From positions 1,736,001-1,800,000 of the forward strand of contig NZ_CP063191.1 in the NCBI RefSeq assembly GCF_028609845.1: DNA of 64,000 nucleotides, read 5' to 3'. The notes under the pieces were generated by a model that was given only the letters and a program-made list of their open reading frames with translations, did not search any database and was not told the DNA's origin. This stretch comes from Corynebacterium heidelbergense (GTDB taxonomy: Bacteria > Actinomycetota > Actinomycetes > Mycobacteriales > Mycobacteriaceae). The translations under genes and the position numbers were made by a program. This document shows positions 30,534-42,837 of the stretch, piece by piece; position 1 is the stretch's first letter, and the number at the start of each line of letters is the position of its first letter.

Positions 30534-31475
30534 TTACTTCGTCGCAAAACCCGGGGAATCGTCCCGGTCTTTTCGCGCCACCGCGGCCTCATATAATTCC
30601 CGCTTGCTCACCCCGTAGCGCCGGGCCACAACCCCCGCCGCAGCTTTTAACCGCTGCCCATCCGCGACGAGGTCCTCCACCTCCCCCACCACGTCTTCCA
30701 CGGCAGGGGTAGCGGCCCCCTCTGGCACCGGGGCGAGAATGACCGTGATCTCCCCCTTAACTCCCTCGGCCGCCCACCGCGCCAGCTCCCCTAGGGTGCC
30801 TCGATGCACCTCCTCAAAGGTCTTCGTCAGCTCCCGGCAAACCGCCGCCTCCCGCTCCTCGCCCAGCACCTCCGCAGCGGTGGCGAGGGTCGCAGCCAGG
30901 CGGTGGGGCGACTCGAAAAAGCACGCGGCGTGGGTGGCCCGCCGCAGGGTTGCCAACCAGGTCCGCCGAGCCCCGTCCTTCCGCGGTGCGAACCCCTCGA
31001 AGCTGAAGTGATCCATGCCCACCCCACTGAGCGCCAGGGCCGTGGGCACGGCGGAGGGCCCCGGCAGGCACGTCACGGGCACCCCGCGCTCCCAAGCCAA
31101 GCTCACAACAGCGAAGCCCGGGTCCGAGACGGAGGGCATACCGGCATCGGTGACGACCAACACCCGCTGGCCCGCGGCCGCCCGCTGTACCAATAAATCC
31201 GCCCGCTGCTGCTCGTTGTGATCGAAGTTGGAGATTACCTCGGTTCCCCTGACGCCCACGCCCAAGTACTCCGCAAGCGCCCGCACCCGCCGGGTATCCT
31301 CCGCGGCGATAACGTCCGCGCTGGCAAGCGCGGCGAGCAGGCGGAAGGAAGCGTCGAGCGGATTGCCCAACGGCGTTCCCGCGAGGATGATCCCCCCGTG
31401 GGGCAGGGGGCTGTGCTCCTCGGCCCGGACGGCCAGGTGGCTGGCGGCGGAGCTGATATCGGGTGTCTCGGTCAT
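30534..31475 (-). CDS. rsmI: 16S rRNA 2'-O-ribose methyltransferase RsmI
   Basis: RsmI, 313 residues, methylates the ribose of C1402 in 16S rRNA using SAM. The tetrapyrrole-methylase-type blocks are ILAGTPLGNPLDASFR, IAAEDTRRVRALAEYLGV, VVTDAGMPSVSDPG and GPSAVPTALALSG. The ATG at 31475 is used. It is divergent from pmt, separated by only 18 bases, as in the equivalent mycobacterial neighbourhood. The leader seems absent (see the promoter entry). The C-terminal part ends in a basic helix (GVSKRELYEAAVARKDRD). Confidence 0.94.
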   Translation of the reverse strand: MTETPDISSAASHLAVRAEEHSPLPHGGIILAGTPLGNPLDASFRLLAALASADVIAAEDTRRVRALAEYLGVGVRGTEVISNFDHNEQQRADLLVQRAAAGQRVLVVTDAGMPSVSDPGFAVVSLAWERGVPVTCLPGPSAVPTALALSGVGMDHFSFEGFAPRKDGARRTWLATLRRATHAACFFESPHRLAATLATAAEVLGEEREAAVCRELTKTFEEVHRGTLGELARWAAEGVKGEITVILAPVPEGAATPAVEDVVGEVEDLVADGQRLKAAAGVVARRYGVSKRELYEAAVARKDRDDSPGFATK

Positions 31476-31478
31476 GCA

Positions 31479-31487
31479 ATACAGTAT
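31479..31487. promoter_or_regulatory. Symmetric ATACAGTAT, candidate bidirectional -10 for rsmI and pmt
   Basis: Only 18 bases separate the rsmI ATG (31475, minus) from the pmt GTG (31494, plus). They contain the near-palindrome ATACAGTAT. It supplies TACAGT on the plus strand, 8 bases before pmt, and TACTGT on the minus strand, 5 bases before rsmI. Both fit the actinobacterial TANNNT -10 pattern at leaderless spacing, and there is no room for a ribosome site on either side. Confidence 0.55.
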
Positions 31488-31493
31488 GTACCT

Positions 31494-33095
31494 GTGCCCG
31501 CACCGAATCCCGCAGATGCCCGCGCTCTGCTGACCCCGACGTCCGCCGGGAGCTCCACCCGCGGTGAGCATCGGCCCTCCCCCGGCGCGAAAACCGCTGC
31601 GACAAGCCCCCGCCGCTGGCGGGTCATTTTGGCCGTGTTGGCCCTGGTGACCGGTACAACCCGGCTCATGCGACTCGGCCGCCCCACGGACGCGGGCACC
31701 CCCGTGTTCGACGAGAAGCACTATGTCCCCCAGTCCTGGCAGATGCTGCGTAGCTGGGACAACTGGCTGATCGGCGGGATCGAGGACAACCCCGGTTTCG
31801 GTTTGGTGGTCCACCCGCCCTTGGGCAAGCAACTGGAAGCGACGGGGATGGCGCTGTTTGGCTACACCCCCACGGGCTGGCGCATCGCCTCGGCAGTGGT
31901 GGGCATCGGCGTGGTCATCCTCACCGCCGCCCTGGCACGACGGATCAGTCGCTCCGACTTCGTTGGCCTGTTGGCCGGGATCTTCGCCGCCAGCGAGGGG
32001 ATCCTGTTCGTCACCGGCCGCTCGGGGATGCTGGACCACTTCCAGGTCCTCTTTGTCGTGGGAGCCGCTTACTTGTTGGTCCGAGATCACGAGCAGATGA
32101 ATCGGCGCATGGCCCGCGTTCGGGAGCAGGGGCGCATCCGGCTCTATCCCGCCGGGCCCCGCCTGGGCTACCGCTGGTGGCGGTTCGCGGCCGGTGTTGC
32201 GCTCGGCCTCGCCCTATCCGTGAAGTGGTCCGGCCTCTATTACATCGCCTTTTTCGGCGTGGCCTGTGTCGCCGCAGATGCGTGGCGCCGGCGGCGCTTT
32301 GGCGTCCGCAGGCCGGTGGTCGGGGCGCTGGCCTTCGATGCTTGCCCCGCTCTTGTTGCCCTCGTGGGGCTTCCCGCCGGGGTCTACGTCTTTTCGTTCC
32401 GGGCCTGGTTCGCCTCCGAATCGGGGGTCTTCCGCCACGCCGCCGAATCGGATGCCTATCCCCAACTGGCCGGGTGGAAACTGTCCTTTCTTCCCGATAG
32501 CGTGCAGAGCTTCCTCTATTATCACGCCAGCGTGCTGAAGTTCCACAGCGAGCTCACCAATTCCAACGGCCACTATCACAACTGGGAATCAAAGCCGTGG
32601 TCGTGGCTGGCCTCTACCCGTTCCCTGATGTACTACAACCCCAAGTCGGACGGCGGCATCCATCACGTGGTGTTGTTGGTGGGCACCCCGGCCGTGTGGT
32701 GGCCGTGCGTCCCCGCGTTGCTGTGGGCATTGTGGTGCCTAATTATTCGTCACGACGCCAGGTTCACCGCGCCCCTCGTCGGCTTCGCGGCCGGGTTCCT
32801 TCCGTGGCTACTAAATCTCGATCGCCAGATGTACTTGTTCTACGCGGTGAATCTCTCCCCCTTCGTCGTAATCCTGTTGGCTTTGACGATGGGGCAGGTG
32901 GTCAACTGGCGGCTGCCCGTGACGAGCCACAGGCGCTGGATCGCAGCGCTGCAATCCCACGCCGGCATTGCCGTGGTGGTGGGTTATAGCGCCTTGGTGG
33001 TGTGGAACTTCTTGTTCTTCCTGCCGATGTACACAGCCATGCCGTTGGACTCGTGGGGCTGGCAGTCCCGGATGTGGCTGCCTAGCTGGTCCTAG
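31494..33095 (+). CDS. pmt: Protein O-mannosyltransferase
   Basis: This GT39 membrane enzyme of 533 residues transfers mannose from polyprenyl-phosphate mannose to secreted proteins. The luminal Asp-Glu pair essential in the family is in FDEKHYVPQSWQML, followed by NPGFGLVVHPPLGKQ and about 11 TM segments; C-terminal FLPWLLNLDRQMYLFYAVN is typical of PMTs. The GTG at 31494 is the first in-frame start after the rsmI promoter; residues 3' of it are Ala/Pro/Ser-rich. The TAG stop shares CTAG with the stop of the convergent zinc-finger gene. Confidence 0.93.
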   Translation: MPAPNPADARALLTPTSAGSSTRGEHRPSPGAKTAATSPRRWRVILAVLALVTGTTRLMRLGRPTDAGTPVFDEKHYVPQSWQMLRSWDNWLIGGIEDNPGFGLVVHPPLGKQLEATGMALFGYTPTGWRIASAVVGIGVVILTAALARRISRSDFVGLLAGIFAASEGILFVTGRSGMLDHFQVLFVVGAAYLLVRDHEQMNRRMARVREQGRIRLYPAGPRLGYRWWRFAAGVALGLALSVKWSGLYYIAFFGVACVAADAWRRRRFGVRRPVVGALAFDACPALVALVGLPAGVYVFSFRAWFASESGVFRHAAESDAYPQLAGWKLSFLPDSVQSFLYYHASVLKFHSELTNSNGHYHNWESKPWSWLASTRSLMYYNPKSDGGIHHVVLLVGTPAVWWPCVPALLWALWCLIIRHDARFTAPLVGFAAGFLPWLLNLDRQMYLFYAVNLSPFVVILLALTMGQVVNWRLPVTSHRRWIAALQSHAGIAVVVGYSALVVWNFLFFLPMYTAMPLDSWGWQSRMWLPSWS

Positions 33096-34012
33096 TGCGA
33101 TCCCTCCCCCACGTCGGGGACGTCCGCGGACTGGGTGTGGCGGCGGTAATCGGCCGGGCTGAAGCTCACGGGCCGCGCTGCCAGCGCCCGCCAGGTCTGG
33201 CTCAACGTGGATCCCAGCGGGGCCCTGGCGCGCAGCCGCGTCAACCAACAGGCCGACAGTGCCAGCGCGGCGAGGAGGTGAATCAAGACCGTCCACACGG
33301 CGGAGGAAGCGCCATAGCCGGAGTCCAGCAGCCCCAGCACGATATCGCGGGTGGCAAAACCCGCGCCGAAGGCCCACATTCCCACGTACACCACGAGCAG
33401 GTGCCCAGCGGACTTCGGGCGCCACGCGGCCCACAGGCACCCGGCGGCCAGCGCGAAGCGGGCCGTTGCGGCTTCAATGACAAAGCGGGCGAGCGTCGGG
33501 TCCGCGGCATCGCCGTAGGGTCCGCCAGGCGAGTTGGTACTCAGCCCCGGGGCCGACCCGGCAGCCGGCCCACCGGCCAGCACTCCGTCGACCCCGGTGG
33601 TTGCGCTGAGCAGCGTGAGGACTCCCCAGGCCACGTAGCCCACAGCGACCAGCACGAGAAACAGTCGGGCTAACAGCAGCGGCAGTTGGCGGGTGCGCAC
33701 ACCGCTGTGGCTCAGCACCCCGTGCGTTGGGTCCGCCGGCGCTGATCCGGCGGTGTCCGGGGCGAAGCCGGTGAGTTGTTCGGCCAGATCGGCCGCGGAC
33801 GTTTTTGGCCCCCCACTGTCAGCGGTGGCAACGCCCATCCGCAGGTGCCGTCCCAGCGCTGTCGCGGAGGCGTACCACGCTTGGCATTCGGCACATTGAG
33901 CCAGGTGGGCGTCCGCGATCTCCTCATCGTGGGGGCTGCGTTCGCCATCGAGGCGCGCAGAGAGCGTGGTACGCACGTCAGAACACTCCACGCTGAACAG
34001 CCCTGCCTTCAC
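33092..34012 (-). CDS. Zinc-finger (anti-sigma-like) membrane protein
   Basis: The 306-residue protein has an N-terminal HLAQCAEC (H-x3-C-x2-C), the pattern of zinc-binding anti-sigma factors, with a Cys near residue 10 (VECSDVR) as the likely fourth ligand. Five or six hydrophobic segments follow from about residue 115 to 265. No sigma-factor gene lies next to it, so an anti-sigma role is unproven; it could be a zinc-sensing or signalling membrane protein. It is convergent with pmt, with stops sharing CTAG. Confidence 0.72.
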   Translation of the reverse strand: MKAGLFSVECSDVRTTLSARLDGERSPHDEEIADAHLAQCAECQAWYASATALGRHLRMGVATADSGGPKTSAADLAEQLTGFAPDTAGSAPADPTHGVLSHSGVRTRQLPLLLARLFLVLVAVGYVAWGVLTLLSATTGVDGVLAGGPAAGSAPGLSTNSPGGPYGDAADPTLARFVIEAATARFALAAGCLWAAWRPKSAGHLLVVYVGMWAFGAGFATRDIVLGLLDSGYGASSAVWTVLIHLLAALALSACWLTRLRARAPLGSTLSQTWRALAARPVSFSPADYRRHTQSADVPDVGEGSH

Positions 34013-34554: not shown

Positions 34555-35847
34555 CTAAACGGCCCGCATGTGGGTACGGCCGACTGGCGCCGCCGCAGTG
34601 GCATCGAGGGCGGGTCCCTCCTCCACCTCCGGGCCGAAGAAGTCCGCGCCGTCCACGGCACGCAGGTGCTCGAACTCCGGGGCTTCCTCGTCCGTCTCCA
34701 GGATGACGGCCCCCGGGCGCAACAGCCGGTCGGGAACACCCAGATCCACGTCCTCCGTGTTGCGCACACCCAGCCGAGCCCGGCGCATCCGGGACAGACG
34801 GCGGTCCCTCAGCTGCGCTTCCTCAATGGCCTGCTTGCGCAAGTAGTAAAGGTACACCCCCGTGGCGCCCAGCATGGCCACGACCGCCAGCCACACCGAG
34901 CCGCCAATCCACAGCGCCAACCCGATAGACAGAACGGACAGCACCAGCAGGGCAGTGAGCACCTGCTTCCGGCGGCGCAGCCTGCGCTGCGCCAACACCT
35001 GCGAGGCGACCGGGTCGTAGACCCCGCGCCCACGGCGGCGCTCGATGTAGGCAATGTCTTCTTGGCTCAACTCCGAGGAGTGGGTGAAGAACTCCAGCTC
35101 GGTGGAAGCCCCGGCACCGGCAGCCGCTTCCTCCAGGGGAGTGAGCTCCGCATGCACGTCCACGCCGCGAACGTAGGCCTCGGAGACCGAGGCGAAACGC
35201 TGGCGCGGGCGGGCACCCGGCTCCTCCACCGCGTCCTCGCCGCTCTCAGCCTCGGGAGCCTCTCGGGATTCGCGGGTGATCTTGCTAGCGCGGACGGCGC
35301 GGGCACCCGAGTTGTTGAGCTCATCTGCCTCGCCGTCGTCCTCGGCCACGACCTCCCCGTCCAGGATCGCCAAGTCCCCCGCCTCGGTGGCCCCGGCATC
35401 CGCCAGGTCTGCGGCCTCCGCACCGTCGCGCCCGGAGGCAGCTTCGGCTACCGGAACTAGGTCCGTAGAGGGCTCTGCCACAGCTTCATTGCCGAGATCA
35501 TCTCCGTGGCTATCCCCGGTCTCGGCAGCCTCCTGGCGCCGGTTGCTACTGCGCCGGGATCCCCCGAAGCGGGAGCGCCAACCGGCGCTGGTGTTGGTGG
35601 CGTCGTCAACAATGACATATTCGGGCTCGGCATCGACGAACTCGATGTCCTCATCCTCGTCCACATAGTGCCCCTCGGCGGGCAAGGGTCGACGGCGCCG
35701 ACTGGCCAGCTCCGTCCCCCCCTCGTGCACCACCCGGGTCTCCGCCAGCGCAGGGGACGTCCGCCGCACCGGGGACTGTCGGCGCAGCAACAGCGGTGCG
35801 AGCAACAGCAGCCAAACGGCGGCGATGAGCAAAAGGGAACCGGACAC
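34555..35847 (-). CDS. glpR: GlpR-type membrane partner of the gephyrin-like Glp
   Basis: The 430-residue protein has an N-terminal TM (about 3-21), a long acidic linker (about 60-260; EDEDIEFVDAEPEYVIVDD), a hydrophobic pair around 290-340 (QVLTALLVLSVLSIGLALWI and SVWLAVVAMLGATGVYLYYL) and a C-terminal cytosolic part (GVPDRLLRPGAVILETDEEAPE). The gene order glp-rimJ-glpR matches the corynebacterial locus where GlpR anchors the gephyrin-like Glp at septum and poles. The assignment rests on synteny and topology rather than a named motif. Confidence 0.78.
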   Translation of the reverse strand: MSGSLLLIAAVWLLLLAPLLLRRQSPVRRTSPALAETRVVHEGGTELASRRRRPLPAEGHYVDEDEDIEFVDAEPEYVIVDDATNTSAGWRSRFGGSRRSSNRRQEAAETGDSHGDDLGNEAVAEPSTDLVPVAEAASGRDGAEAADLADAGATEAGDLAILDGEVVAEDDGEADELNNSGARAVRASKITRESREAPEAESGEDAVEEPGARPRQRFASVSEAYVRGVDVHAELTPLEEAAAGAGASTELEFFTHSSELSQEDIAYIERRRGRGVYDPVASQVLAQRRLRRRKQVLTALLVLSVLSIGLALWIGGSVWLAVVAMLGATGVYLYYLRKQAIEEAQLRDRRLSRMRRARLGVRNTEDVDLGVPDRLLRPGAVILETDEEAPEFEHLRAVDGADFFGPEVEEGPALDATAAAPVGRTHMRAV

Positions 35848-35978
35848 GGCGAGCGGTCCTTCCTGCGGAGACGACGGGTGGTGGAGCGGGACGGTCGAGT
35901 TCGACGAACACGTACTTGACCCCCCAACCTAGTAGCGCCGCCACGCCGAGCGGAACTGCCACGCCGGAGGGCGCCCGC

Positions 35979-36665
35979 CTACCCCCGGATCAGCCGCCCC
36001 TCCTCCACCAAGCGGGCCACAACGCCCCCGCCGTGGGCCAGGCCGGTCTCCTCCGCGGTCTGCGCCACCAGGAGGTGATCCTGCCAGCGGCCGTTGATGT
36101 GAAGATTGCGCTGCAGCCTGCCCTCCACCCGGAAGCCGGTTCGCTCCAGCACCCTGCGAGAGGCGTGATTGCCCTCCATCACTGTGGCCTCCACCCGGTG
36201 CAACCCCACCTGGCCCACCGCGTGATCCGTGCCGAGCGCCACCGCCGCCGTAGCCACGCCTGCACCCCCCACGGCGGAATACACCCAGTAGCCAATCCAG
36301 CAGCTACTCACCACCCCGTGCTGGATGTTCCCCAGCGTCAACTGGCCCGCAAAGCGCCCGTCGACTTCGATCACCGCTGGGATCAGGGCCCCGCGCACCG
36401 CCGTCGCCCGCAGCGACGCACACATCCGCCGCCAGGTCGGCGGCGAGTGAAACTCCGCCCAATCCCCCGCCACCGTCGGCTCCACGGGACGCAGCCGCTC
36501 CATGTCCCCCCGCCGCAGCGCGCACCAGGCCCCGCCGTCCGAACGGCGCAAGGGGCGCAGGCGCACTCGAAACCCAGGCCCCTGCGCCGGGCGGGTGTGC
36601 ACCACCGGAGTAGAAATCGGCCAACCCGGGTGGGCAGCCCCGGACAACAACGCGGCGAGCATCAC
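35979..36665 (-). CDS. RimJ-like GNAT N-acetyltransferase
   Basis: The 228-residue acetyltransferase has the GNAT core: RLRPLRRSDGGAW near residue 35, IEVDGRFAGQLTLGNIQHG, the acyl-CoA region GIGxG-like GGAGVATAAVALG and EGNHASRRVLERTGFRVEG. It resembles RimJ/RimI enzymes that acetylate ribosomal or other N termini. It lies between glp and glpR, as in Mycobacterium tuberculosis where rimJ lies between moeA1 and Rv0996. Its substrate is unknown; modification of a cell-division partner is conceivable but unproven. Confidence 0.87.
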   Translation of the reverse strand: MMLAALLSGAAHPGWPISTPVVHTRPAQGPGFRVRLRPLRRSDGGAWCALRRGDMERLRPVEPTVAGDWAEFHSPPTWRRMCASLRATAVRGALIPAVIEVDGRFAGQLTLGNIQHGVVSSCWIGYWVYSAVGGAGVATAAVALGTDHAVGQVGLHRVEATVMEGNHASRRVLERTGFRVEGRLQRNLHINGRWQDHLLVAQTAEETGLAHGGGVVARLVEEGRLIRG

Positions 36666-36698
36666 GCAGCCTCTCCCATCGGGTCAGCCTCCCATGGG

Positions 36699-38069
36699 CT
36701 AAGTCCGGTTGGTCAGGAACATCACGTCCACAACGTGACCGGGTTCCACGTGGGTCTCGTCCGTCGGCACGATGATCAGGCAGTTTGCCTGCCCGTGGCT
36801 GCCCAATAGGTGCGTCGGCTCCCCCCGGTCGGCGGCGCCCAGAGGATCCACGAGAAACTCCCGGGTCTCCCTATCCCGCATGAGCTGGCCCCGAATGAAG
36901 CCTCGGCGGTGCGGGGCGGACTCGATACTGGCGATCGTCCGGGCCTGCACGATGCGGCGGGTGGCCTGGCGCTGCCCGCGAATGATCTGGACCAGCGGGC
37001 GCACCATGACCTCGAAGGCGACCAGCGCTGCGGAGGGGTTGGGTGGCAACAGGAACGTGGGGATCTTGTCCGGGCCCAGCGTACCGAACCCCATGACGGA
37101 ACCCGGGTGCATCGCGACCCGGGTGATCTCCATTCCGCCGAGCTCGTCGAGCACCTCCCGCAGACGGTCGCTGGCCTGCCCGCCCACAGCCCCGGCGATA
37201 ACCACCACCTCCGAGCGGATCAGTTGCCCCTCGATCGTGTCTTTCAACCGCCGGGACTCCCCAGCCATGATGCCCAGCCGGTGCACATCGGCGCCCGCCT
37301 CCCGCCCGGCAGCGGCCAGGGCGTAGGAATTGACGTCAAACACCTGGCCCAGCCCGGGCTCCCGGTCGATGTCCACAAGCTCTGCACCGAAGGCGAGCAC
37401 GGACATCCGCGGCCGCGGGTAAACCAGCACTTTGGAACGGCCCACCGCCGCCAACAACCCCACTTGCGCCGCACCGATCACCGCGCCCTGCTCCACCACC
37501 ACGTCCCCCGGCTGCACGTCCGAGCCCTTGCGGTGTACGAAATCCCCCGGCGCGACCGGCCGCAGCGGGGCGACGTGTCGACCGTGCACCTCGGCCCAGT
37601 CCATGGGGACCAGGGCGTCCGCCAGCGTGGGGATCGGGGCACCCGTGTACACCCGCACGGCCTGTCGGGGCTGCAAGCGGACGGGCCGGTGGGAGCCGGC
37701 GGTCACCTCCCCCACGATGGGCAGCGTCATGGCCGGGCCACGGCGACGCGGCCCATCGGGGCGTTCCTCCCCCACTTCACCGGGTTCCCCGTCGATCTCC
37801 TCGGGGTCCTGTAGAGACGCCCCGTCATCGGCGTCCTGAAGAACATCGTGGGCATAATCAGTGTCCCGCAGATCCCGCAGGCCCCGCAGATCCACGGCGC
37901 GCACGGCGAACCCGTCGATCGCGGCCTGATCAAAACCGGGAACGGACCGGGTTCCCTCCACCTGCTCAGCGCAGCGCAGCCCCAGTGCCTCGGAGATCGC
38001 GATGCGCACGGGCTCGGGAGTCACCGCAGCGGCGCTGATCACCGATAGCTGTTCTTCCACAGATCTCAT
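36699..38069 (-). CDS. glp: Gephyrin-like Glp (MoeA homologue)
   Basis: The 456-residue protein has the MoeA fold: FDQAAIDGFAV (46-56, equal to the SxxDGYA block), TGAPIP (142-147) and LPPNPSAA (341-348). The molybdate-insertion motif of MoeA (GGVSVG type) reads IAGAVGGQASDRL (291-303), so the catalytic Ser position is not conserved. In Corynebacterium glutamicum such a protein, Glp, binds FtsZ and works with GlpR in septation. An acidic 40-residue insert lies at about 70-112. The locus glp-rimJ-glpR supports a division role over Moco synthesis. Confidence 0.82.
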   Translation of the reverse strand: MRSVEEQLSVISAAAVTPEPVRIAISEALGLRCAEQVEGTRSVPGFDQAAIDGFAVRAVDLRGLRDLRDTDYAHDVLQDADDGASLQDPEEIDGEPGEVGEERPDGPRRRGPAMTLPIVGEVTAGSHRPVRLQPRQAVRVYTGAPIPTLADALVPMDWAEVHGRHVAPLRPVAPGDFVHRKGSDVQPGDVVVEQGAVIGAAQVGLLAAVGRSKVLVYPRPRMSVLAFGAELVDIDREPGLGQVFDVNSYALAAAGREAGADVHRLGIMAGESRRLKDTIEGQLIRSEVVVIAGAVGGQASDRLREVLDELGGMEITRVAMHPGSVMGFGTLGPDKIPTFLLPPNPSAALVAFEVMVRPLVQIIRGQRQATRRIVQARTIASIESAPHRRGFIRGQLMRDRETREFLVDPLGAADRGEPTHLLGSHGQANCLIIVPTDETHVEPGHVVDVMFLTNRT

Positions 38070-38219: not shown

Positions 38220-39176
38220 TTAGTTCTCCTGGAAGGTTTCTTCGAAGCTGTCCAGGGCGTTTTCTTCGGCGACCCGCTTGTTCAACCAGCGGTGCAGGGA
38301 GGGGCCGTAGGTGTCGTCGCGCAGGGCGAAGTCCACGCAGGCGCGGATGTAGCCGCCGGGGTTGCCCAAGTCGTGGCGGGCGCCGTGGTGGACGACGATG
38401 TGGACGGGGTGGCCCTGTTGGATGAGGGATTCGATGGCGTCCGTGATCTGGATCTCCCCGCCCTTGCCCGGCTTGGTGTTGCGCAGCGCGTCGAAAATCT
38501 GGCGACCCAGCAGGTAGCGCCCGGTGGCCACGAAGTTGGAGGGGGCATCCTTCACGTCCGGCTTCTCCACCATTGCCTTGACCTGCTTGACGTCCGGGTC
38601 ATCGGAGGGCTCGATGTCGAACACGCCGTACTTGGACACGTCCTCCGGATCCACTTCGAAGGCACACAGCACGGATCCGCCGTACTGCTTGCGCACCTCG
38701 ATCATCTTGTCCAGCACGCCGAAGGGCATGACCAGGTCATCCGGGAGGAGCACAGCAACGGCCTCTTCGTCATCGTCGAGGACCTGCTCGGACAGGCCGA
38801 TGGCGTGTCCCAGGCCCAGGGGGCGTTCCTGTTCGACGGCGACGGCGTCGATGAGGCCGTCCACGGCGCGAACGCGGTCGAGCTGTTCGGTCTTGCCGCG
38901 CTCGGCAAGGGTCTCCTCCAGCTCGGGGTGCTTGTCGAAGTGACCCATGATGCCGGTCTTCTTGGGAGCGGTGATGATGGCCAGGCGAGTGGCGCCGGCG
39001 GCGGCGGCTTCCTTGGCGATGAGCTCAATGCCCGGGGTTTCCACCACTGGCAGCAGCTCCTTGGGGACGGTCTTGGTGGCCGGCAGGAAGCGCGTGCCCA
39101 GCCCGGCTGCTGGCACCACAACGGTGCGGACGTGGCCCGGCTGCGATGGTGCGTTCGTGGAGTCGTTGGAAGTCAT
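38220..39176 (-). CDS. galU: UTP-glucose-1-phosphate uridylyltransferase
   Basis: GalU, 318 residues, makes UDP-glucose for cell-wall, trehalose and glycolipid synthesis. The nucleotidyltransferase signature VPAAGLGTRFLPATKTVPKE (about 18-37) is followed by GIELIAKEAAAAG, DDLVMPFGVL and the metal or sugar-binding region VATGRYLLGRQIFDAL. The ATG at 39176 is chosen over an upstream in-frame ATG, because the extra 39 residues have no homology. It is divergent from the 5-FCL gene with a CRP-type site between them. Confidence 0.95.
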   Translation of the reverse strand: MTSNDSTNAPSQPGHVRTVVVPAAGLGTRFLPATKTVPKELLPVVETPGIELIAKEAAAAGATRLAIITAPKKTGIMGHFDKHPELEETLAERGKTEQLDRVRAVDGLIDAVAVEQERPLGLGHAIGLSEQVLDDDEEAVAVLLPDDLVMPFGVLDKMIEVRKQYGGSVLCAFEVDPEDVSKYGVFDIEPSDDPDVKQVKAMVEKPDVKDAPSNFVATGRYLLGRQIFDALRNTKPGKGGEIQITDAIESLIQQGHPVHIVVHHGARHDLGNPGGYIRACVDFALRDDTYGPSLHRWLNKRVAEENALDSFEETFQEN

Positions 39177-39319
39177 GGGGTGAATGCTACCGTCTGGCGG
39201 GGTTGCGGCGGGGTGATTCGCTGCCGGGTGGGCGGGCGGTGAGGGGGGTATGGGGTTGGACGCCAATAGCGGCGCAGCGGGCCTGAGCTGCATAATTGAT
39301 TGCGGGAATCGTTAGCTAG

Positions 39320-39335
39320 TGTGATGGCAGTCACA
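39320..39335. promoter_or_regulatory. CRP/GlxR-type site between galU and the 5-FCL gene
   Basis: TGTGA-TGGCAG-TCACA is an exact match to the TGTGA-N6-TCACA pattern of GlxR. It lies 144 bases before galU (minus) and 43 bases before the GTG start of the 5-FCL gene (plus). A second imperfect symmetry, AGTG-TGACTG-CACT, follows at 39346-39359. The position close to the 5-FCL start suggests it may repress that gene. Confidence 0.75.
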
Positions 39336-39377
39336 CCCGTGCGCAAGTGTGACTGCACTGCGCCGAGAGGAGGACTC

Positions 39378-40067
39378 GTGGAAGAGACTGTGAGCGAGTC
39401 GACGAACGGAGACACTGCTATGGCTGAGCGGCACGATGCCATTGCCGAAGACAAGCGCCGTCTACGAACCAAGATCCGGCGGGCCCGTCGGCGCTTGAAC
39501 CCCGAGGCTCGCCGCGTACGGGATGGTGAGATTCAGTGCAGGATGCTCGCCCATCTGGCCGAAACGATGGAAGGGGCCGGGTCGAGTGGCGCCGCCGGTT
39601 CGCTACAGCTAGCCACGGTGTTGGCGTTCGCGCCGATGGAGGGAGAGCCGGGCGGCACTGCGCTGCCCCAGGTGCTTTCCAGCGCCGGGTATCAAGTCCT
39701 GCTGCCGCGGATCGACGAGCGGACCCTCGAGCCGACGCTGCTGTGGGTACCGTTTCGGGGGCCGGGGGACCTGGCCTGCAACCGCCTGGGCATCCCGGAA
39801 CCCCAGGGCCAGCCGGTGCCCGACTGGCGGGCGACAGACGTCGCGGCGGCGATCGTCCCTGCGCTGGCGATTGATGGCGAGGGGATTCGACTAGGCCAGG
39901 GCGGCGGGTTCTACGACCGGGTCTTCGCCAGCTCCGCGGGCGCGCGGCCCTATGTGATCGGGCTTGTCGGCTCTGACGAGCTCGTGGACGAGGTGCCCTC
40001 CACCTGCTGGGATATGCGCGTGGATGCGGCGGTCACGCCAGCGGGGGTGCAGCGCTTCGGGAAGTAG
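39378..40067 (+). CDS. 5-formyltetrahydrofolate cyclo-ligase
   Basis: The 229-residue enzyme converts 5-formyl-THF to 5,10-methenyl-THF with ATP. Family marks are KIRRARRRLNPEARR, FAPMEGEPGGTALPQ and the C-terminal ATP-binding block IRLGQGGGFYDRVFAS. The GTG at 39378 follows a strong GAGGAGG; an ATG at 39421 (MAERHDAIAED) is an alternative. It is divergent from galU, as 5-FCL and galU are in mycobacteria (Rv0992c-Rv0993). Confidence 0.92.
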   Translation: MEETVSESTNGDTAMAERHDAIAEDKRRLRTKIRRARRRLNPEARRVRDGEIQCRMLAHLAETMEGAGSSGAAGSLQLATVLAFAPMEGEPGGTALPQVLSSAGYQVLLPRIDERTLEPTLLWVPFRGPGDLACNRLGIPEPQGQPVPDWRATDVAAAIVPALAIDGEGIRLGQGGGFYDRVFASSAGARPYVIGLVGSDELVDEVPSTCWDMRVDAAVTPAGVQRFGK

Positions 40068-40103: not shown

Positions 40104-40394
40104 CTACTGCCAATGCGGCGGTCGCTGCTCGCGCCAGTAGGTAGCGTCGAAGTGTTCGGCGTCCTCGGCAATCATGCTCTCCGCGGCAGAATCCAACACC
40201 TCCCGGTTGTCGTCGAGGGACCCACGATCCGCCGCACTTGCACTCGACATCGCCCTGCCCGGCGCGGCACTCCGCGTGCGCTGGGCGGCCCGCTGGCCGT
40301 TAGTGTGCGGCTTGTCCGAGCCAAGCTGCCCCGTCACCCGGCGGGGCCGCCTCCCCCCGAAAGGACCGGTCTGGGCCTGTTCGTCCCCTGCCAT
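40104..40394 (-). CDS. Small conserved hypothetical protein with C-terminal PPHW
   Basis: A 96-residue, mostly polar and disordered protein with a conserved-looking C-terminal stretch DATYWREQRPPHWQ. Its ATG shares one base with the stop of the Mog-like gene (TAATG), so the two are translated together. I cannot assign a function. Its coupling to mog is the main clue. Confidence 0.7.
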   Translation of the reverse strand: MAGDEQAQTGPFGGRRPRRVTGQLGSDKPHTNGQRAAQRTRSAAPGRAMSSASAADRGSLDDNREVLDSAAESMIAEDAEHFDATYWREQRPPHWQ

Positions 40395-41026
40395 TAGGAA
40401 CTCATTTCGTCCAGAACGTGCCGAACCAGCGGACACAGAGTCGCCATTCCGTCTCGGATGGCGCCGCGGGACCCGGCCAGATTCACCACGACCGTGGAAC
40501 CGGATACTCCCGCTACCCCTCGGGACAGGGCGGCGTCCATGCTGTTCGCGGACAGTCCCGACGAGCGGATGGCCTCCGCGATGCCGGGGATCTTGCGGTC
40601 CAGAAGGGTCCGCGTGGCCTCCGGGGCGCGATCCCGGGATCCCATCCCGGTTCCGCCGATCGTGACCACCAGGTCCGCTCCCCCCACCACTGCGGTCTCG
40701 ATGGCGTTCCGGATGATGGACTTTCGTGATTCCACGGTGAGTACGGCGTCCACGATGAAAGATTCCTCCGCCAACAGCTCGGCGACGAGATCGCCGGAGG
40801 CCTGCGGATCGGAGGGGTTATCGGAGATGAGGACGACGAGGGCGTGATGATCGGCGGAGGACCCAGCGTCGTGACGCACCCGCCGTTCCGCGTCGAGGGT
40901 GCGGAAGTGGGCTGCATCGGGCTCGACGACCTCGGCGGCCAGGCGGTCGAGGTCAGAGTGGTCCACGTTGTCCACGCTGGGAATTGCAACTCGTTGGGAG
41001 GCGCTCTGGCCGGAACGGGGCGACAC
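40394..41026 (-). CDS. MogA/MoaB-like molybdopterin-binding protein
   Basis: About 210 residues, with the MoCF-biosynthesis fold: ALVVLISDNPSDPQASG, the signature TIGGTGMGSRDRAPEAT and MDAALSRGVAGVSGSTVVVNLAGS. GTG at 41026 is preferred because AAGGAG lies 9 bases upstream; an ATG at 41062 would put that site inside the gene. It sits downstream of htrA, as moaB2 follows pepD in M. tuberculosis. Moco synthesis or a moonlighting role cannot be separated here. Confidence 0.85.
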   Translation of the reverse strand: MSPRSGQSASQRVAIPSVDNVDHSDLDRLAAEVVEPDAAHFRTLDAERRVRHDAGSSADHHALVVLISDNPSDPQASGDLVAELLAEESFIVDAVLTVESRKSIIRNAIETAVVGGADLVVTIGGTGMGSRDRAPEATRTLLDRKIPGIAEAIRSSGLSANSMDAALSRGVAGVSGSTVVVNLAGSRGAIRDGMATLCPLVRHVLDEMSS

Positions 41027-41207
41027 GGATTTGTCTCCTTGACCTGGTAAAACGTAGCTCACCAGAGCTATCGCGTCGGGGCGGGGGCGAAGCGCTGGTG
41101 AAGGACACTTTCACCGTATCCGCCCAACGGAGGGCTGTACAGACGAACGGGGTTTTTGGGGGCCTCTCCCCCAGGATCCGGCAGCTCACCCGGGGGTAGC
41201 AGGCAAG

Positions 41208-42524
41208 CTACTCCGAGCCGAGGGTGACGGAGACGTTCCGCTCCGGCCCGTCCTTGCCGTCGCGCACTACGAGGTTCACCACATCCCCAACCTGGTGGGA
41301 GCGAACGGCCGCGATGAGAGCCACCCCTGATTCGATGGGACGGCCATCCATCTTGACGACCACGTCACCCTTCTTCAACCCTGCCTTCTCTGCGGGGCTG
41401 CCGGGGTTCACTGCCGCGATCTCTGCCCCGCCGGCTGTGTCTGAGCGGCTCACCTGCGCACCGATGATGGCGTGGCCTGCCTTGCCGCTATCCATCAGCT
41501 GCTTGGCGATCCGCTGGGCTTGATTGACCGGAATGGCAAAACCCAACCCGATGGAGCCGGATTGCCCCTCTTGCCCCAGGGTGGCGATGACCGTCGGGAT
41601 CCCCACGAGTTCACCGCGCATATTAACTAAGGCTCCCCCGGAGTTGCCGGGGTTGATCGCCGCATCGGTCTGCACTGCGTCGATGAGGGAGGCCTCACCG
41701 CCGCCTTCCCCGGTGGCCTGCACGGGGCGGTTCTTTGCGGAGACGATGCCCGTTGTCACCGTGGCGTTAAGACCCAGCGGTGAGCCAACGGCTACTACGC
41801 TCTCCCCGACCACCAGCGAATCGGAATTGCCCAGTGTCATGGGGGTAAGGTCCTTAGCGCCGACGGCCTTGATCACGGCAATATCGGTCTGCGGATCGGT
41901 GGCCACGAGCTTCGCCGGTAGGGTTCTCCCATCATTCAAGGTGACCCTAATATCACCGCGGCTGCCGGCGTCCCCAATAACGTGATTATTGGTCATGATC
42001 ATGCCATCAGAGGTGAGGATGGAGCCGGAACCCTCGGCGCCGCCCCGCAGCCCAGAGGCCTGGATGGACACGACGCTGGGCAGCACCCGGCTGGAGACCT
42101 CCTCCACTGACCCGGCCTGCGGGGGGCGTTGATCGCCTGCGGGCAGCGGCCGATCGAAGGAGCTAGAGACGTTCTTCGTGCCCGCCGATTCCATCGCAAG
42201 GTTGGTTCCGACGGTCGCCAGTACGGCAGTCCCCGCCATGAGCAGCGCTACTACCGGGGTGGACCATCGCCGGGACTTGGGGGCACTGGGGGCCACACCC
42301 GCACCGGGATAGGGCTGGTTGGGCCCAGCTCCTCCTGCGCATCCGGGGTTACCGTAGGTGCCCGCCCCCGCTACCCCACCGGGGCCGACGGGCATGGAGG
42401 CGGTTTCTTGGATTCCGGGTTGGGGACCCCTGGGAGTGTTCGGCTGCCCGGCCGGAACCGAACCCCTGTGGGTGTTCTCATTGTGAGTTCCTGGACCCCA
42501 ACTACCGCCGTGACCGTTGGCCAT
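41208..42524 (-). CDS. HtrA/PepD-like membrane-anchored serine protease
   Basis: The 438-residue envelope protease handles misfolded exported proteins. A Gly/Pro-rich cytosolic tail (about 1-85), a TM (VVALLMAGTAVLATVGTNLA), the trypsin-like domain with His in NNHVIGD, Asp in TDIAVIKA and Ser in NPGNSGGAL, and a C-terminal PDZ domain (VNPGSPAEKAGLKKGDVVVK) are all visible. ATG 42524 is preferred over an upstream in-frame start. It is followed by the Mog-like gene. In related genomes a two-component system (MprAB type) lies directly upstream; none is seen here. Confidence 0.93.
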   Translation of the reverse strand: MANGHGGSWGPGTHNENTHRGSVPAGQPNTPRGPQPGIQETASMPVGPGGVAGAGTYGNPGCAGGAGPNQPYPGAGVAPSAPKSRRWSTPVVALLMAGTAVLATVGTNLAMESAGTKNVSSSFDRPLPAGDQRPPQAGSVEEVSSRVLPSVVSIQASGLRGGAEGSGSILTSDGMIMTNNHVIGDAGSRGDIRVTLNDGRTLPAKLVATDPQTDIAVIKAVGAKDLTPMTLGNSDSLVVGESVVAVGSPLGLNATVTTGIVSAKNRPVQATGEGGGEASLIDAVQTDAAINPGNSGGALVNMRGELVGIPTVIATLGQEGQSGSIGLGFAIPVNQAQRIAKQLMDSGKAGHAIIGAQVSRSDTAGGAEIAAVNPGSPAEKAGLKKGDVVVKMDGRPIESGVALIAAVRSHQVGDVVNLVVRDGKDGPERNVSVTLGSE

Positions 42525-42837
42525 GTTCTCTTCGCTTCCTTTCCTCTTGCCCCGCTTCACCGAAATTCGCCCGGCTGCCGGGGAGCCCTGGCGTGGGCCA
42601 CCCACGGCAGCGGAGGAATGCGTGAATGACGCACAAATCGAACTACGTAGTGAGTATGGGCGATCAACTTGGGGGTTTGCCACCAGAAGGGCTTGCCTTG
42701 TGCTGCGAGGTTACCGCCTCTTCTCTAGTCCCCACCCACCCCAAGATCCCCATCGCACACAGCAAATTCACAGTAAACGCTCACGGAGGCGCTCGTGGCG
42801 CACCGTCGGGGGCGCTCCTGTGCCCCCGAACGCGAAA
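42525..42837 (-). other. htrA upstream region
   Basis: This gap of about 310 bases lies between the htrA start and the rpmF terminator. I see no gene. It should contain the htrA promoter on the minus strand, but I cannot pick a convincing pair of hexamers. There is no remnant of a response regulator or histidine kinase in any frame. Confidence 0.5.

Follow-up and report, generated by a model that had tools for sequence, protein, structure and literature searches.

The stretch analyzed here (the window) comprises 64,000 nucleotides of the Corynebacterium heidelbergense genome, positions 1,736,001 to 1,800,000 of contig NZ_CP063191.1, and carries at 34555-38069 the genes for Glp, a gephyrin-like protein of the MoeA fold, for a GNAT-family protein and for the membrane protein GlpR. 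The locus is a member of the known Glp-GlpR system in a Corynebacterium genome; a chance match is excluded by the family scores (E-values of 5e-160 for Glp and 3e-65 for GlpR) and by the conserved gene order. Very probably Glp and GlpR form a divisome module in which a former enzyme of molybdenum cofactor (Moco) synthesis now acts as a scaffold, Glp being the sole MoeA-family gene found in this genome. The order glp-rimJ-glpR given in the original prediction is the one present, with all three genes on the minus strand:

34555-35847, minus strand: glpR (SepX/GlpR), encoding a membrane protein of 430 amino acids (NF045516, hydropathy, charge)
35979-36665, minus strand: gene for a RimJ-like GNAT N-acetyltransferase of 228 amino acids, between glp and glpR (PF13302)
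36699-38069, minus strand: glp, encoding a gephyrin-like MoeA-fold divisome protein of 456 amino acids (NF045515, Pfam, clade, best solved relative 8bve/8bvf)

Glp had been described as a MoeA-fold protein, and it contains all three MoeA Pfam domains (MoeA_N, MoCF_biosynth and MoeA_C). It scores 532.7 bits on the NCBIfam Glp model NF045515 (cut-off 475), a pass that is not sufficient for Glp identity because intact-site MoeAs pass too. On the actinobacterial MoeA model, with a cut-off of 560, it reaches 257.5 bits. The closest solved structure is that of C. glutamicum Glp (PDB 8bve/8bvf) and the nearest named Glps come from Corynebacterium, the best of them (69%) from an uncultured Corynebacterium metagenome-assembled genome. 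A phylogeny of MoeA and Glp proteins, named as a check in the original prediction, puts the protein inside the Glp clade with a support of 100 in the Shimodaira-Hasegawa-like approximate likelihood ratio test (SH-aLRT) in both of two trees, built by a quick method with SH-aLRT only and no bootstrap. The first tree separates the clade from 21 MoeA rows. Two long-branch paralogue rows were removed before the second was built; it separates the clade from E. coli MoeA and from 11 rows of corynebacterial MoeA paralogues.

The active site was compared over 131 genomes of the genus, evenly drawn, including that of the window and used as the same set for every family search; Glp exceeded the NF045515 cut-off in 128 of them. 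These 128 Glps were set beside 13 corynebacterial MoeA paralogue rows and 30 apparently sole MoeAs from a class-wide set described below. The E. coli MoeA sites D59, T100, R137, D142, E188, D228, K279, R350 and S371 are those of solved variants (structure titles), and D259, K275, K282, P298 and P301 are positions that we take to belong to the active site. At the D228 position the corynebacterial Glps have Gly (100) or Ala (28) and in no case Asp, the residue found in 30/30 apparently sole MoeAs and 13/13 paralogue rows. Every Glp has Arg at 275, His at 279 and Ser at 282, and the string HPGS is present in 128/128 Glps, 0/30 sole MoeAs and 0/13 paralogues. The motif G[AG][VI]GG is distributed in the same way (128/128, 0/30, 0/13) and reads GAVGG in the window protein, at the place aligned with the GGVS-type loop; GG[VI]S occurs in 13/13 paralogue rows. 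The motif counts are not tied to a sequence position, and a GG[VI]S string is also present in 3 of the 128 Glps. The relevant elements of the window protein are:

37260-37262, minus strand: Glp Gly270, aligned with E. coli MoeA Asp228 (alignment)
37164-37199, minus strand: altered active-site loop IAGAVGGQASDR, Glp residues 291-302 (of the GGVS type in catalytic MoeA)
37098-37109, minus strand: HPGS, Glp residues 321-324, aligned with E. coli K279-P-G-K282

The altered molybdate-insertion motif noticed in the original prediction is thus real, but it is clade-wide (128/128) and nothing special to this genome; the idea that GAVGG is peculiar to Moco-less species was rejected, as all 128 Glps share it. 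The Asp of a QASDR stretch was likewise rejected as the counterpart of E. coli D228, since alignment with E. coli MoeA gives D259 there and puts D228 elsewhere. The structural role proposed for the protein is supported by the loop and by the other active-site changes, and the genome has none of the upstream Moco enzymes covered by the searches.

In C. glutamicum, according to PMC10522489, Glp binds FtsZ and GlpR through a loop, GlpR binds Wag31, and deletion of glp causes a septation defect; two Pro-rich hinges and the FtsZ loop are given there as marks of Glp. The nine published FtsZ-contact residues map to V374, I379, L396, M397, R398, R400, F405, L406 and F451 of the window protein. Six are identical to those of C. 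glutamicum (V374, L396, M397, R398, L406 and F451), two are conservative replacements (I379, Leu to Ile; F405, Tyr to Phe) and one is changed (R400, Ala to Arg). The published loop M361-Y369 is kept as LMRDRETREFL, with F405 in place of Y369. An LMRD loop is present in 128/128 genus Glps, including 52/52 from genomes without MoaA, and in 0/30 apparently sole MoeAs and 0/13 corynebacterial MoeA paralogues. Both hinge signatures, TPEP and PRPR, are found; a hinge 2 pattern occurs in 29/30 sole MoeAs and a hinge 1 pattern in 2/30, and it is mainly hinge 1 that discriminates. As to the partners, the host FtsZ ends in DDLDLPSFL, and SepF and DivIVA/Wag31 are encoded after ftsZ. The features mapped on Glp are:

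38010-38021, minus strand: putative Pro-rich hinge 1, TPEP, Glp residues 17-20 (located in the sequence by the account given in PMC10522489)
37734-37877, minus strand: variable acidic loop, Glp residues 65-112, isoelectric point (pI) 4.11 (genus Glp comparison, computed pI)
37407-37418, minus strand: putative Pro-rich hinge 2, PRPR, Glp residues 218-221 (sequence)
36852-36884, minus strand: predicted FtsZ-binding loop, LMRDRETREFL, Glp residues 396-406 (mapped from C. glutamicum L360-L370 by alignment)

The stretch 61-115 around the acidic loop is the longest among the 128 Glps; the insert was nevertheless rejected as a special feature, its length varying from 11 to 55 residues over the set.

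GlpR reaches 221 bits on the SepX_GlpR_1 model NF045516 (cut-off 160). It had been characterized as an acidic membrane protein with three hydrophobic segments, and simple hydropathy agrees, with one N-terminal segment (about residues 1-24) and a pair around 294-336; the region 27-290, corresponding to the acidic intrinsically disordered region 1 (IDR1), has a computed pI of 4.46. The product of the intervening gene, which is present in 127/128 genus loci, is a GNAT protein (PF13302, 1.7e-16), but its identification as RimJ did not hold, as it obtains 54.8 bits on the RimJ equivalog model against a cut-off of 190, and we call it RimJ-like. Its suggested modification of one of the partners found no support besides the conserved gene order.

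The host genome (G000; 2.33 Mb, 2 contigs, 98.7% complete) encodes one MoeA_N protein and two PF00994 proteins. Profile searches for MoaA, MoaE, a PF00384 enzyme and a second MoeA found none of them in it; MoaC, MoaD, MobA and ModABC were not searched. Because the upstream enzymes searched for, MoaA and MoaE, were not found, a part for Glp in Moco synthesis is unlikely here.

The same state recurs across the genus. MoeA_N (PF03453) was matched in 131/131 genomes, the MoaA C-domain (PF06463) in 78, MoaE (PF02391) in the same 78 and PF00384 in 75; all 53 genomes without MoaA also lack a MoaE match. MoaA is absent from 51/127 genomes of at least 90% completeness and at most 5% contamination. Each of the 53 MoaA-less genomes has a single MoeA_N gene, and 77 of the 78 MoaA-bearing ones have two to four; in the exception (G135, 53% complete), which has MoaA, the only MoeA does not pass the Glp cut-off. 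Glp scored over the cut-off in 52/53 MoaA-less genomes. In one such genome (G094, 77% complete) the match is split in two pieces, by assembly error or by decay, and a similarly broken or partial match was obtained in G124. Another MoaA-less genome (G108, 77% complete) has PF00384 matches, a mismatch that probably reflects an assembly gap, and four (G070, G082, G141, G142) have MoaA and no PF00384 match. A locus tree of 128 loci was made by a quick method from the Glp, GalU and MoaB2 sequences. Along it the MoaA label switches 20 times, with supported branches forcing at least 16 of these changes, and extra MoeA copies tracked MoaA in 16/16 independent contrasts (sign test, 3e-5). We read the changes as losses, although the counts cannot separate gain from loss, and conclude that Glp is retained in the absence of Moco. 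As a separate observation, many formate-dehydrogenase-like PF00384 matches in genus genomes contain a single in-frame TGA, a sign that corynebacteria with Moco genes may have selenocysteine enzymes.

In the mechanism that we favor Glp would be a MoeA-fold homodimer whose molybdate-insertion site, judged by the sequence changes, has been lost. Conserved residues and the partners present suggest that the domain IV hairpin at the dimer center binds the C-terminal peptide of FtsZ together with GlpR, and that GlpR in turn may contact Wag31 and couple the septum to the future pole. Such a scaffold role would explain why Glp persists as the only MoeA-family gene. Four findings weigh on the other side. 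The AlphaFold model is of poor quality (mean pLDDT 62). The last 90 residues of GlpR have a pI of 4.87 and are basic only over the first 35 (pI 11.1 for residues 341-375, 4.33 for 376-430), IDR2 of C. glutamicum GlpR being basic with a pI of 10.87 (PMC10522489). The median Glp/GalU protein divergence is 1.35 in 125 mixed pairs of one genome with and one without Moco. Finally, D59, D142, E188 and R350 are invariant in 128/128 Glps, including 52/52 from MoaA-less genomes; the old pocket may thus keep a structural or ligand role.

These four residues and the MoeA fold are also what could be said for a Glp that still makes Moco, or that, like gephyrin, moonlights in the two roles. We hold this to be very improbable: no MoaA or MoaE was found to provide the substrate and no PF00384 enzyme to receive the product, and D228, K279 and K282 are replaced, and a GAVGG-type motif is present, in 128/128. 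Decay of Glp and MoaB2 as relics after pathway loss, for which the two-piece Glp match in the incomplete genome G094 might be cited, is hardly credible in view of the over-cut-off Glp in nearly all MoaA-less genomes, the intact FtsZ loop in each of these Glps and the preserved gene order. Nor is the Glp/GalU ratio raised within Moco-less pairs (median 1.09 in 85 pairs, 1.15 in 255 Moco-bearing pairs), these pairs overlapping in ancestry and the ratios being descriptive; relaxed selection on Glp after pathway loss was therefore rejected on the within-group ratios, though the mixed pairs are higher. Somewhat less remote, but still unlikely, is the re-use of the pocket for a different ligand (a nucleotide, a pterin or a peptide) regulating the scaffold: the four old residues are invariant and others uniformly replaced (R275, H279, S282), but no ligand is known and the invariant residues may only hold the fold.

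Upstream of glp the locus continues with further genes, among them moaB2:

38220-39293, minus strand: galU, conserved neighbour (domain and family profiles, genus loci)
39300-40067, plus strand: gene for 5-formyltetrahydrofolate cyclo-ligase, conserved neighbour (domain and family profiles, genus loci)
40394-41062, minus strand: moaB2, encoding a Mog/MoaB-family protein without the catalytic Asp (PDB relatives, genus matches, site analysis)
41208-42683, minus strand: gene for an htrA-like serine protease, upstream of moaB2 (domain and family profiles)

The order moaB2-galU-glp-rimJ-glpR is conserved in 126/128 fetched genus loci, the exceptions being, by elimination, G018 (moaB2 match on a different contig) and G131 (glp starting from base 3 of its contig). 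The htrA-like gene was seen in 57/128 loci, the fetched stretches being too short to reach it in every locus. A close MoaB2 match was obtained in 130/131 genus genomes (a distant match only in G135), and moaB2 lies on the contig and strand of glp in 127/128, at 2.3-6.6 kb, the distance in the window being about 2.3 kb. The window MoaB2 has Ser at the site aligned with the catalytic Asp of MogA. Among 127 genus rows Ser occupies this site in 100, with Ala, Lys, Asn and Glu next and Asp outside the five commonest residues. The closest PDB chains are 3tcr, 3rfq and 8byr; the entry name or PMC11656743 identifies two of these, 3rfq (named MoaB2) and 8byr, as mycobacterial members of the MoaB family. 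The M. smegmatis MoaB2 (8byr) is a close relative with the same replacement of the catalytic Asp by Ser (Ser51); according to PMC11656743 it binds sigma-A, its authors consider a Moco role unlikely, and a MoaB2-sigma-A interaction detected in C. glutamicum is cited there. The retention of MoaB2 without MoaA agrees with that view.

It is likely that MoaB2 is kept solely for sigma-A binding and is unrelated to Glp, their proximity being inherited synteny. The published interactions speak for this, as does the position of moaB2 beside an htrA-like gene, as in the mycobacterial pepD-moaB2 arrangement; a second partner of MoaB2 would nevertheless be compatible with the present data. Such a partner could be Glp itself: the altered active sites of both proteins, the spacing of their genes and the retention of both without MoaA, MoaE or an extra MoeA led us to consider a split gephyrin, in which Glp (the E half) and MoaB2 (the G half) would both have turned into scaffolds, as dimer- and trimer-forming parts of one septal network. 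We regard this as a rather improbable extension.

The origin of the locus was followed in a class-wide set of 295 genomes (completeness floor 95%), of which 263 had a MoaA match, 272 a MoeA_N match and 216 a Glp over the cut-off. A single MoeA_N match was found in 124 (manual list), 115 of them with MoaA, and in 89 of these 115 the best Glp-model E-value was at most 1e-142, our estimate of the 475-bit cut-off. Thirty of the 89, representing 26 genus codes and chosen among those with listed coordinates, were fetched, along with 10 stretches from nine multi-copy MoeA genomes. The word "sole" may overstate the case for some of the 30 MoeAs, since 22 had one match by both profiles and 8 a second Glp-model match, with only the best six candidates scored in the Glp search of most class genomes. 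All 30 combine Asp at D228, GG[VI]S and the lack of LMRD, and in all 30 loci the MoeA gene and the RimJ-like one have a Mog-family gene between them. The multi-copy genomes have an intact site at the locus in 6/9, the other three, from the family of the window's genome, being of the Glp type. The 36 Mogs found in the 40 stretches have the catalytic Asp in 34 cases and a gap in two. SepX/GlpR was the best match of 10/10 downstream proteins from the 30 loci, picked for three hydrophobic segments, and six of them were over a cut-off.

The repurposed Glps group in a single 25-row clade (SH-aLRT 100, stem 0.91) beside the intact MoeAs, with members from Corynebacterium, the three same-family genomes, Gordonia, Nocardia, Antrihabitans, Mycobacterium, Streptoalloteichus and Nakamurella. 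The class survey leads to a history other than that of an old spare copy. We take an intact moeA beside an intact mog near sepX, an arrangement surviving in other Actinomycetes, as ancestral; the data suggest that the locus held an ordinary MoeA, repurposed in one clade, with other paralogues present where Moco genes remain. Two of the intact MoeAs (L215:4431-5729 and L225:2871-4127) score 601 and 583 bits on NF045515, more than the true Glp of the window (533), and 511 and 495 bits on the actinobacterial MoeA model (MoeA_actino), below its cut-off of 560. NF045515 thus covers both kinds, and NCBI rules would apparently give these intact-site MoeAs the name Glp, probably a systematic error of naming. 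In one genome of the class set (G321) MoaA is present and MoeA_N is not matched, which implies that PF03453 misses some MoeAs. Several small genomes of family code f34 (about 1.2-1.6 Mb) give weak Glp-model matches (about 1e-60 to 1e-79) and no MoeA_N match; most of them are without MoaA, G321 having it, and they may contain divergent relatives.

Adjoining the locus are a protein O-mannosyltransferase-like gene and a gene for a membrane protein with a zf-HC2 domain, at 31218-33095 and 33092-34012. The zf-HC2 domain is known from anti-sigma factors.

The Glp-GlpR system itself is known; what is new is its Moco-less setting. The mixed nature of the proteins called Glp is also of interest, and the NCBI model appears to name intact-site MoeAs as divisome proteins. 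At least two MoeA copies are given by PMC10522489 for most genomes of actinobacteria and by PMC11733289 for bacteria with Glp. The Moco-less corynebacteria, with Glp alone, and the apparently sole MoeAs of the locus both conflict with the latter statement. The same paper, from the discoverers in 2025, calls the enzyme function of Glp currently unknown and then argues for its loss from the altered site. The retention of Glp while MoaA changed at least 16 times is a natural experiment that offers independent evidence on this loss. Our literature search, which left most subscription journals outside and so is not proof of absence, returned no paper on Glp kept without Moco.

Compared with the C. 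glutamicum system (Cgl0883/Cgl0885; 8bve, 8bvf; PMC10522489), the locus encodes the same families, with one gene between them as the C. glutamicum locus numbers imply, the same hinge and FtsZ-loop signatures, and the partners FtsZ, SepF and Wag31 are present in the genome. It differs in the long acidic variable loop of Glp and in the GlpR tail, basic and then acidic; C. glutamicum also has two further MoeA genes, whereas the searches of the present genome gave no MoeA gene besides glp and no match for MoaA, MoaE or PF00384 enzymes. Streptomyces SepX forms one family with GlpR in NCBIfam, and the 30 apparently sole MoeAs of the class-wide set, unlike the window Glp, have an intact active site and no FtsZ loop. 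Mammalian gephyrin is a further case in which the MoeA fold has come to serve as a scaffold for membrane receptors, linked to a cytoskeleton of the tubulin family (PMC10522489, PMC11733289); gephyrin, however, keeps its enzyme activity and a fused G (MogA) domain, whereas here the Mog-family protein is encoded by a separate gene about 2.3 kb away.

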